Position numbers and translations under genes: made by a program. From Candidatus Parabacteroides intestinavium (lineage in GTDB: Bacteria; Bacteroidota; Bacteroidia; Bacteroidales; Tannerellaceae), in assembly GCA_019118725.1 (NCBI GenBank), contig DWYO01000085.1:1-33371 (forward strand): DNA of 33,371 nucleotides. Direction: 5' to 3'. Of the stretch, positions 24,895 to 28,809 are shown piece by piece. Within the stretch, counting starts at the first letter, position 1; every line of letters begins with the position of its first letter. The notes under the pieces were generated by a model. The model ran no database searches. It was given only the letters and a program-made list of their open reading frames with translations, and was not told the DNA's origin.

Positions 24895-25890
24895 TCAAGG
24901 TACTTCTACTTTATTCAAGATTTCACTGATTACCTCTTCTGTAGTCAGATTGTTTGCTTCCGCTTCGTAACTCAATCCGATACGGTGGCGCATCACATCA
25001 TGACAAACAGCACGTATATCTTCCGGAATCACATACCCTCTACGCTTGATGAATGCGTAAGCACGAGCTGCAGATGCCAAACTGATAGATGCACGCGGAG
25101 AAGCTCCGAATGAGATCATGTTCGCCAAGTTCGGCAGGCCATGTTCTTGCGGGAAACGGGTCGCAAATACAATATCCACGATATAACGTTCTATCTTTTC
25201 ATCCAAATAAACCTCACGGACTACCTTTCGTGCTTCCAGGATTTCCTCTTTGGAAAGGATAGGTTTGATATCCGGTTTCACGCCGGATATATTCTGACGG
25301 ATAATCAGTTTTTCTTCCTCTTTCTTCGGATAAGAGATAATCACCTTCAGCATGAAACGGTCTACCTGCGCTTCCGGAAGCGGATAGGTTCCCTCCTGCT
25401 CTACCGGGTTCTGAGTAGCCATTACCAAAAAAGGTTCCGGCAGTTTATAGGTCTGCTCACCGATAGTCACCTGGCGTTCCTGCATGGCCTCCAACAAGGC
25501 ACTCTGTACTTTTGCCGGAGCACGGTTAATTTCATCGGCCAACACAAAATTAGCGAAGATAGGTCCCTGTTTTACCTGAAACTCTTCGCTTTTCTGACTA
25601 TAAATCATCGTACCGATAACATCGGCCGGAAGCAAATCCGGAGTGAACTGGATTCGACTATATTTTGCATCAATCAGGGAAGAAAGGGTCTTAATGGCCA
25701 ATGTCTTTGCCAAACCCGGTACACCTTCCAGCAAGATATGTCCGTCTGAGAGTAAACCAATCAACAATGACTCAACAAGATGTTTCTGACCAACAATCAC
25801 CTGATCCATGCCCATCGTAATCATATTTACGAACGAGCTTTTACTTTCAATTCGTTCATTCAATTCACGAATATCAACCGTCTGACTCAT
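24895..25890 (-). CDS. MoxR-family AAA+ ATPase
   Basis: LLEGVPGLAKTLAIKTLS (Walker A), FVLADEINRAPAKVQSALLEAMQERQVTIG (Walker B), ATQNPVEQEGTYPLPEAQVDRFML. Confidence 0.95.
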   Translation of the reverse strand: MSQTVDIRELNERIESKSSFVNMITMGMDQVIVGQKHLVESLLIGLLSDGHILLEGVPGLAKTLAIKTLSSLIDAKYSRIQFTPDLLPADVIGTMIYSQKSEEFQVKQGPIFANFVLADEINRAPAKVQSALLEAMQERQVTIGEQTYKLPEPFLVMATQNPVEQEGTYPLPEAQVDRFMLKVIISYPKKEEEKLIIRQNISGVKPDIKPILSKEEILEARKVVREVYLDEKIERYIVDIVFATRFPQEHGLPNLANMISFGASPRASISLASAARAYAFIKRRGYVIPEDIRAVCHDVMRHRIGLSYEAEANNLTTEEVISEILNKVEVP

Positions 25891-26088: not shown

Positions 26089-27156
26089 CTATTTGTCACC
26101 TTTCCCGTCCCCTTCGGATAAAATTTCGGTCTGTAAAGCCGCAGCTTTGTCTATAGAGGCTCGGTCTTTTGCATTTATCCCATACCGGGCCGGTGCCGGA
26201 ATACGTATTTCCGTCCCTATCGGTATGTTATTCGGGTCGACTATGACCGCGTCATTATACTTATATATATATACCCAGAAGAATTTGTGTCCATAATACT
26301 TCAACGATATAGAGGTCAGTCTGTCGCCCGATTTAATCTGAGTCACGGCCAAATCCTCCAACGGATCCGGTTTTACGTCTTCCGGCGGAAGTGTATCCAC
26401 GGGTACTACTTTCCCTGAATCTTGAACCATCCGGGGAGTATCCACAAGAGCCACCGGCTCTCTTTCTACATGAACCGAGCCGTCCGGGGCCAAACGTACC
26501 GGATTATCCTTCACGAACCATTCACTCAAATAAGCGATATAGGCAATACCTGCCACAATTATCGCTACTAGGCAAGCCACCAATATCCGCCATTTCCGGG
26601 AATCATCCTTTACCAGGGGAGGCTGGAGCGGCATTTCCGGCACCGGTTTCTCTGTTTTGTCCTCCCTTATCTCCTCAGGTTCTACAGGAACATCCGGTTT
26701 CATTTCCACGTTTTCCTGCTCAGGTTCTTTCTCTACCGGAGGCAAATCCGGCAGGACCTCTTCTACCGATTCATCCGATACCCCCTCTATATCCTCCGGT
26801 TCAGAAGAGGCATTCAAATCAGAAAAAGTCACACCGGCATTCAGTTCCGTAGTTTCAAACCAAGAAAAAGGTTTGTTGACCAACTCTTTCAAGTCTTTGT
26901 CCGGTACAAAGGTAAACTTATAATGTGCCGGGATCAGAAAACGCTCACCGGAATTGACCGAGACACTCTCCCGTTCTTCTACACGGATAATTTTGAATGT
27001 TCCCAGTCCCTTTACTTTAACCAGCTTATCGGTATAAACGCCCTCCGTTACGACCGCAACAAATGTCTGCAAGAAACGCTCAGCCTCTTGCACCTCCTTG
27101 CCGGTCTGCTCGGCCAATATAACAGCTAAGTCCTGTAATGTCAGTCGTTTATTCAT
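26089..27156 (-). CDS. HU/IHF-like domain protein with acidic linker, single TM helix and C-terminal LysM domain
   Basis: HU-like MNKRLTLQDLAVILAEQTGKEVQEAERFLQTFVAVVTEGVYTDKLVKVKGLGTFKII; TM WRILVACLVAIIVAGIAYIAYL; LysM VTQIKSGDRLTSISLKYYGHKFFWVYIYKYNDAVIVDPNNIPIGTEIRIP. Confidence 0.9.
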   Translation of the reverse strand: MNKRLTLQDLAVILAEQTGKEVQEAERFLQTFVAVVTEGVYTDKLVKVKGLGTFKIIRVEERESVSVNSGERFLIPAHYKFTFVPDKDLKELVNKPFSWFETTELNAGVTFSDLNASSEPEDIEGVSDESVEEVLPDLPPVEKEPEQENVEMKPDVPVEPEEIREDKTEKPVPEMPLQPPLVKDDSRKWRILVACLVAIIVAGIAYIAYLSEWFVKDNPVRLAPDGSVHVEREPVALVDTPRMVQDSGKVVPVDTLPPEDVKPDPLEDLAVTQIKSGDRLTSISLKYYGHKFFWVYIYKYNDAVIVDPNNIPIGTEIRIPAPARYGINAKDRASIDKAAALQTEILSEGDGKGDK

Positions 27157-27484
27157 TTTCTTCCAATTTCTTTAGCCGGTTCTTCACCGTTACTCCCGGC
27201 TTAAATACCGGAACCAGTTTAGGCGGAACCAGGTATCTCTTTCCATTAACCGGATTCACGGAAATCCGTTCCATTTTCTTCCGCACCTCAAATTGTCCGA
27301 ACGAAGCCAAATAGACCGAATCCCCCTCCATCAGCTTCGTCCCGATGGCCGAACCTAAGGCGGAAAGCATCTCTGTCACCTCTTTTGAGGTCCAGTTCAT
27401 GCGCCCGGAAAGGGCTGATATGACTTCTTTACTTTTCATGGAAGAGCGTTTTTCGATATCGGTTGCTATATTAATCATTTTTGG
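27149..27484 (-). CDS. HU-family DNA-binding protein
   Basis: MINIATDIEKRSSMKSKEVISALSGRMNWTSKEVTEMLSALGSAIGTKLMEGDSVYLASFGQFEVRKKMERISVNPVNGKRYLVPPKLVPVFKPG. The ORF extends to 27496. The stop overlaps the start of the HU-LysM gene (ATGAATAA). Confidence 0.88.
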   Translation of the reverse strand, partial: PKMINIATDIEKRSSMKSKEVISALSGRMNWTSKEVTEMLSALGSAIGTKLMEGDSVYLASFGQFEVRKKMERISVNPVNGKRYLVPPKLVPVFKPGVTVKNRLKKLEENE

Positions 27485-27513
27485 GTAAACACACAACTTT
27501 TTTAAGGCTGAAT

Positions 27514-28809
27514 TTACAAAACCCGGCCATAAAGCTCAAAAGGCTGTGCATCTTCAATCAGCACTTCATAAAAATGGCCCGGTTTAAGCACTTTATCTTT
27601 ACTGATCAAAACTTCGGGGTCAACTTCCGGTGAATCGTATTCCGTACGCCCGATGTAGAAATCCTCCTCCTCACGATCCAGAATAACCTTAAAAGTCTTA
27701 TCAATCTTCGAGGTATTAGCCGCCAACGAGATACGTTCCTGCGCCCGCATCAGGATATCCAAACGCTCCTGCTTTGTCTCTTCAGGAATACTGTCCTCAT
27801 AATGCTGGTATGCATACGTACCGCTCTCGTGGCTATACGCGAACGCCCCCATCCGCTCAAAGCGCACCTTCCGTACAAATTCCAATAACTCCTCAAAATC
27901 GGTCTCCGTCTCGCCAGGATGTCCCACCATCAAGGTAGTCCGCAAATGAATGCCGGGCACCTCCTCTCGCATCCGTTGCATCAATTCGTATGTCTGAGCC
28001 TTCGTGATGTTCCGCCGCATCATTTTCAACATGTTATCACTGATATGCTGGAGGGCTATATCCATATACTTACACACATTCTCACGTTCGCGCATGACAC
28101 GGAGCAGATCCATGGGGAAATGCGCCGGGTAGCCATAATGCAGGCGGATCCATTCTACCCCTTTCACATCCGAAATCCGCTCTACCAGCTCCGGAAGTGC
28201 CATTCGTTTATAAAGATCCAAACCGTAATAGGTCAAATCCTGAGCGATCAACTGGAACTCCTTGACGCCTCGGCTCACCAGCAGTTTCACCTCTTCTACC
28301 AGATCCTCCATAGACCTGGACTGATAAGCGCCTGTAATCAACGGAATAGAACAATATGAGCAGGTGCGGTTACATCCTTCGCCAATCTTAAGATAGGCAT
28401 AATGCTTCGGGGTAGTCAGCACCCGATCGTGTGCCAATTCTTCATGGTAAGCCTTTCCCAAGTCAGAAATCAATTCCTTCCAATTGAATTTCCCATAAAA
28501 ATGGTCCACCTCCGGAAGCTCTTGCATCAGGTCATTCATGAAACGTTCCGAAAGGCATCCCATTACAAACAACTTGCCTATCTTACCCTGCTTCTTGGCC
28601 TGGCCCAGCTCCAGAATCATCTCGATGGACTCTTCCTGCGCATCACCGATAAATCCGCATGTATTGACCACGACTATCTCACCATTGATTTTATGCGGGT
28701 CATGCTCCACCTGATAGCCATTCGCCTTGAATTGACGCATCAGTTGTTCCGAATCCACAAGGTTCTTCGAGCACCCCAACGTTATAATATCCACCTTATT
28801 TTTCCGCAT
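27514..28809 (-). CDS. rimO: Ribosomal protein S12 methylthiotransferase RimO
   Basis: ITLGCSKNLVDSEQLM; radical SAM CNRTCSYCSIP; C-terminal TRAM-like region. Confidence 0.96.
   Translation of the reverse strand: MRKNKVDIITLGCSKNLVDSEQLMRQFKANGYQVEHDPHKINGEIVVVNTCGFIGDAQEESIEMILELGQAKKQGKIGKLFVMGCLSERFMNDLMQELPEVDHFYGKFNWKELISDLGKAYHEELAHDRVLTTPKHYAYLKIGEGCNRTCSYCSIPLITGAYQSRSMEDLVEEVKLLVSRGVKEFQLIAQDLTYYGLDLYKRMALPELVERISDVKGVEWIRLHYGYPAHFPMDLLRVMRERENVCKYMDIALQHISDNMLKMMRRNITKAQTYELMQRMREEVPGIHLRTTLMVGHPGETETDFEELLEFVRKVRFERMGAFAYSHESGTYAYQHYEDSIPEETKQERLDILMRAQERISLAANTSKIDKTFKVILDREEEDFYIGRTEYDSPEVDPEVLISKDKVLKPGHFYEVLIEDAQPFELYGRVL

Follow-up and report, generated by a model that had tools for sequence, protein, structure and literature searches.

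The window, by which we mean the whole stretch of 33,371 nucleotides that was analysed, comes from a genome assembly of Candidatus Parabacteroides intestinavium that is 81% complete. It harbors, on its minus strand like all of the window features described here, a gene of 355 codons with an ATG start (26089..27156, stop included), whose product combines an HU domain, a single transmembrane (TM) helix and a LysM domain. The HU domain, referred to here as HU2, encompasses residues 1-105 (26842..27156; PF00216) and ends in a tail, N-K-P-F-S-x-F-E, that lies beyond the HU fold and is conserved in the A1 and A2 relatives. Its beta-arm, KIIRVEERESVSVNSGERFLI (26932..26994), has a net charge of 0 and carries valine at the position of the intercalating proline. 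An acidic, Glu/Pro-rich cytoplasmic linker, residues 106-188 (26593..26841), is predicted to be disordered, with a pLDDT <50 over residues 113-182, and leads into the TM helix WRILVACLVAIIVAGIAYIAYL, residues 189-210 (26527..26592), which is the sole hydrophobic helix and is predicted to run N-in. On the basis of the model and family comparison, a periplasmic linker is placed at residues 211-267 (26356..26526). It is followed by a LysM domain of the Kbp/TsaP type, residues 268-321 (26194..26355), with the family motif YYGHKFFWVYIY, and by a C-terminal helix, residues 322-355 (26092..26193), that is modelled over residues 332-354 and conserved in A1.

The gene directly upstream encodes HU1, a soluble partner HU of 96 residues (27149..27439; PF00216, E 7.3e-21) with a net charge of +9 and an arm, EVRKKMERISVNPVNGKRYLV, that includes the NP proline. 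Its start is very likely the ATG at 27439 rather than the TTG at 27496. The stop codon of HU1 (TAA, 27149-27151) and the start codon of HU2 (ATG, 27154-27156) fall within an overlap of 8 nt (27149..27156). By synteny, the usual upstream neighbor is rimO (27514..28809; Radical_SAM/UPF0004/TRAM_2), and the usual downstream neighbor is a MoxR AAA ATPase (24895..25890; AAA_3, E 1.5e-67), the first gene of a Bat-type operon. A search with Rfam found no regulatory RNA in the window.

The architecture put forward in the initial annotation, an HU-like domain joined through one TM helix to a LysM, is borne out by the Pfam HU match within the 355-residue ORF (PF00216, E 1.5e-17, residues 6-94), the one TM helix, and the NCBIfam and profile matches to LysM. 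It is kept in 159 distinct relatives and is therefore not due to chance. Structure prediction of the HU domain, suggested at the same time as a check, gave an HU fold. The AlphaFold2 model, built from an alignment of the window protein with proteins from related loci, shows this fold with both arm strands at a pLDDT that is mostly 70-87, and beyond it disordered linkers, a single helix at residues 186-212, and a LysM at a pLDDT of ~90; the best PDB matches of the model in Foldseek are HU/IHF proteins (5lvt, E 1.2e-7).

The C-terminal domain is a divergent LysM of the Kbp/TsaP type. The Pfam LysM model stays under its cut-off in the window protein (E 0.023), the NCBIfam Kbp/YgaU model matches residues 266-321 (E 1.4e-5), and a search with the family profile finds the solved structures of Kbp (E 6.4e-11) and TsaP (E 1.1e-4). 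The earlier assignment to LysM thus holds, with the correction that the domain is divergent. A chance artefact is ruled out by the NCBIfam match, the modelled fold and the profile matches. Kbp is a K+-binding protein, and a LysM of this type may have K+ as its ligand in place of peptidoglycan. The same LysM type is found at the C-terminus of OmpA-like proteins (L179:1756-3471, L180:1579-3252), which is consistent with a periplasmic wall role, and a Wzc-like polysaccharide co-polymerase/kinase also ends in it (L181:302-2959). Within family f16, paralogous clusters pair a short HU-TM-LysM protein with a TM-LysM protein encoded after it (L186:1977-3649, L187:1076-2513, L188:1039-2453), and in the L186 cluster a short HU1-like ORF lies ahead of both.

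Across 158 distinct relatives, Lys and Arg in the 15 residues flanking the TM helix number 4.3 before the helix and 1.7 after it. The N-terminal flank is the richer in 131 of these proteins and the poorer in 18 (p 2e-22, a value that is overstated because the sequences are related), and a second hydrophobic helix is present in none of the 158. A cytoplasmic HU domain and a periplasmic LysM are well supported by this charge bias, in agreement with the earlier placement of the two domains on opposite faces of the membrane. Across the family, the cytoplasmic linker is very rich in acidic residues (E 22.5%, D 9.0%). The length of the periplasmic linker is 73 residues at the family median and 61 in the window protein; when extended, this linker would be long enough to span to the wall.

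Clear members of the module are found in ~19 of the ~109 sampled families of Bacteroidales, in a survey of 198 genomes of the order whose counts represent related genomes and not independent events. Outside the Bacteroidales it is carried by a single family (f131), which belongs to another class. Among named organisms, the nearest relatives are Parabacteroides, and in the window's own family the module is near universal (49 of 51 good genomes). A separate HU1 gene lies directly upstream in 141 of 159 distinct proteins, and most of the remaining 18 contain an HU1-like domain within the same ORF. The two genes overlap by 1-11 nt in 130 of the 141 pairs (-8 in 85, -4 in 30, -11 in 13 and -1 in 2), which upholds the earlier claim of translational coupling to the upstream HU. 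The usual gene order is rimO-HU1-HU2-moxR-bat. In 47 pairs both rimO and moxR are missing from the fetched stretch, and the pairing is consequently not a by-product of the rimO-moxR block; the absence of one neighbor alone carries little weight, since most stretches reach only ~1.5 kb on each side. Taken from sequence, the HU1-HU2 pairing and the N-in topology both appear strongly supported.

That the two HU chains could heterodimerise was proposed at the outset, and this idea has gained from the adjacency of the genes and from natural fusions. In 141 of 141 pairs, the HU1 profile and the HU2 profile give the higher score to the member of their own class, partly by construction because the profiles were trained on those pairs. 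Eight natural two-domain fusions outside the training set (L042, L169, L161, L166, L167, L175, L176 and L185) score best as HU1 in the first domain and as HU2 in the second, which is the gene order. A tree based on the HU2 tail and LysM has 7 changes between the fused and separate states; as it draws on few columns and has some long branches, including both f80 rows, a fusion origin is claimed for several lineages only. Within it, the L185 fusion falls in the window's own genus, and L168, in which the genes are separate, groups with the fused L166 and L167. The fusions represent strong Rosetta-stone support, short of proof, for an association of HU1 with HU2, and together with the gene pairing they point to a shared HU dimer as the probable state of the two chains.

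The two partners differ in the features associated with DNA binding. In HU1 the intercalating proline of the arm is kept in 134 of 141 sequences and the net charge of the domain averages +5 in Bacteroidales. HU2 has a net charge of approximately -0.5 in Bacteroidales and -2 in the window, where its arm reads SVNSG, with Val in place of the proline. Val or Ile occupies this position in 89 of 100 Bacteroidales, and Pro in 41 of the 41 pairs counted with family f131. R58 of HU2 is retained in 91%, and the arm has been deleted in L039, L043, L183 and in the fusions. The initial annotation had staked the tether on the presence of a DNA-binding arm in the HU domain. That arm is indeed present in HU2, but without its intercalating proline and on a domain of negative net charge. 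Because HU2 is near neutral and devoid of the arm proline, any DNA contact of the window module would be mainly through HU1.

Neither is DNA binding probably universal in the family. In f131, HU1 is nearly neutral (+0.5), and in genus g307 the HU1-like part, an HU1 body joined to an HU2 tail, has a net charge of -6 to -12, such that DNA binding looks to have been lost. The TM helix and LysM persist in g307, so the module may have other roles. The chimeras at L156, L157, L159 and other g307 loci consist of the HU1 body with the C-terminal strand and tail of HU2. That this tail, FTPDxxLNExVNxxFSxFEP, persists where the remainder of HU2 has disappeared hints at an independent function for it.

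A further feature is seen in one clade of family f16 and is absent from the window's own HU2-TM-LysM gene. In genera g301, g303, g307, g308 and g309 (loci L149-L168 and L189-L208), the TM codons for L/I-F-F-F read xTT TTT TTT TTC, with exactly ten T followed by C in 30 of 30 genomes, a count made over run-bearing loci, some of which (g307) were first noticed by the run itself. Flanking codons vary at third positions, and Phe is encoded in these loci by TTT (55%) and TTC (45%). On the same f16 branch, g305 is without the T10 run, and in g300 the run either falls in a different phase or is a T9. In 15 of the 30 genomes the LysM is in frame; in the other 15 it is without exception in the +1 frame, and the HU frame ends 6-17 codons past the run. 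Slippage is known to occur at long runs of A or T, which coding regions contain less often than expected (PMC1088944). The invariant T10C and the +1 placement of the LysM in half of the genomes suggest programmed transcriptional slippage, yielding HU-TM proteins with and without LysM, as the best reading; a -1 ribosomal shift would yield the other frame. Two papers on recoding make no mention of this gene in the text searched.

Taken together, these observations make it plausible, with a probability of about one half, that the module tethers the nucleoid to the envelope. HU1 and the HU2 domain would fold together as a dedicated cytoplasmic heterodimer, in which the intercalating arm and the bulk of the charge that contacts DNA would come from HU1. 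HU2 would provide the attachment, by way of its flexible acidic linker, one N-in membrane helix, periplasmic linker, and a LysM predicted to hold peptidoglycan, much as the periplasmic LysM of Vibrio HubP serves in positioning partition proteins. In this organism and in most module-bearing Bacteroidales, the nucleoid would then be tethered, or transiently held, at the envelope. The DNA-to-wall tether of the initial annotation therefore stands in part: the topology, the pairing and the proline and charge of HU1 speak for it, and the missing proline of HU2, the arm losses and the acidic HU1 of g307 speak against it. A fuller version, in which the heterodimeric HU bridges DNA to peptidoglycan and one f16 clade sets the ratio of wall-attached to membrane-only forms by T10 transcriptional slippage in the TM codons, is offered tentatively. 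Direct tethers between DNA and the wall have rarely been identified in bacteria, little is known of how Bacteroidota position their chromosome, and no functional description of, or experimental data on, the HU-TM-LysM architecture was found in the literature. With a soluble and a wall-anchored HU in one operon, the module represents a testable candidate for such a tether. The natural fusions, arm losses and conserved putative slippage site offer existing variants with which to ask if the module requires DNA binding, and for what reason its attachment to the wall should be dosed.

Some of the features that weaken the case for a tether would fit HU folds that act as a protein scaffold, with the HU1-HU2 heterodimer forming the dimerisation and partner-binding head of an envelope protein and DNA binding being ancestral or incidental. 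The arms of HU2 have been lost repeatedly and HU1 of g307 is acidic, yet the TM-LysM part and the tail VNKPFSxFEP are kept, the latter even in chimeras otherwise without HU2. The partner could be, for example, the neighboring MoxR/Bat complex, as moxR and bat genes lie downstream at many loci, or a division or elongation protein. However, a pure scaffold has no need of the proline found in 134 of 141 HU1 sequences or of the basic charge seen in most Bacteroidales, and the pair persists at 47 loci without rimO or moxR; on balance we consider this explanation rather unlikely.

It is also conceivable that the protein is a membrane-bound transcription regulator of the ToxR/CadC one-component type, in which the LysM senses the state of the wall or periplasm, or an ion as in Kbp, and alters HU-DNA contacts at promoters. 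A domain of DNA-binding type, one TM helix and a periplasmic ligand-binding domain are present in a single chain, and the LysM is nearest to that of the K+-binding Kbp. The long disordered linkers that flank the membrane helix would nevertheless be poor transmitters of a signal, Pfam found no promoter-specific domain, and HU/IHF folds serve an architectural role and bind DNA mostly without specificity, all of which makes regulation of this kind improbable. Least probable is a role in which the module would retain foreign or incoming DNA at the envelope, during uptake, conjugation or defence. HU is a general DNA binder, the protein is located at the membrane, and HU expansions in Bacteroidetes have been proposed to act on invasive elements; against this, the gene is a syntenic core gene, near universal in its family and not island-like, and PADLOC returned no match to a defence system.

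The nucleoid tether that we favor would have a parallel within the same genome, which also encodes an HU-CCDC81_bac_1/2-TM-SPOR protein (L044:1414-2508). This parallel HU-to-wall architecture substantiates the initial expectation that similar proteins occur in Bacteroidota, and makes HU-TM-LysM a further form of a known architecture. Of 98 good genomes of the order, 91 have the first HU domain of the CCDC81 type, so genomes with the module usually carry two proteins of the HU-TM-wall-binding type. Burroughs et al. reportedly predicted a chromosome-partition role for the HU-CCDC81_bac-SPOR family in 2017. Both forms have tandem HU-type domains, one TM helix and a domain of peptidoglycan-binding type on the outside. 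The present module differs in having two canonical PF00216 HUs, mostly in two coupled genes, and LysM instead of SPOR: Pfam found neither PF18174 nor PF18175 in the window protein, and Pfam and NCBIfam found no SPOR domain, its C-terminal domain being the LysM. Several HU2 domains (A2 members, L167 and L185) match PF18175 (HU-CCDC81_bac_2) weakly and below its cut-off, and the model reaches E <0.01 in 6 of 33 relatives. The CCDC81-type tandem HUs and the HU1-HU2 pair might have a common origin.

Among better known proteins, the polar landmark protein HubP of Vibrio has a periplasmic LysM, a TM helix and an acidic cytosolic region, and positions the chromosome origin through ParA1 (PMC8789113). 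The window protein resembles HubP/FimV in its periplasmic LysM, one TM helix and long acidic cytosolic region. In HubP, however, the cytosolic part contains Asp/Glu repeats and a TPR region but no HU, and contact with DNA is made only via ParA1. The LysM of HubP, which lies N-terminal to its TM helix, is placed in the reverse order in the window protein, which is predicted to be N-in and in which Pfam found no TPR. HU alpha-beta and IHF alpha-beta share the HU fold with the module and have the heterodimeric form that is proposed for it, and the fused HU1-HU2 relatives are natural counterparts of engineered single-chain IHF (2iie). Known HU and IHF proteins bear no membrane anchor or LysM, and in the present pair one subunit is without the arm proline and the charge.
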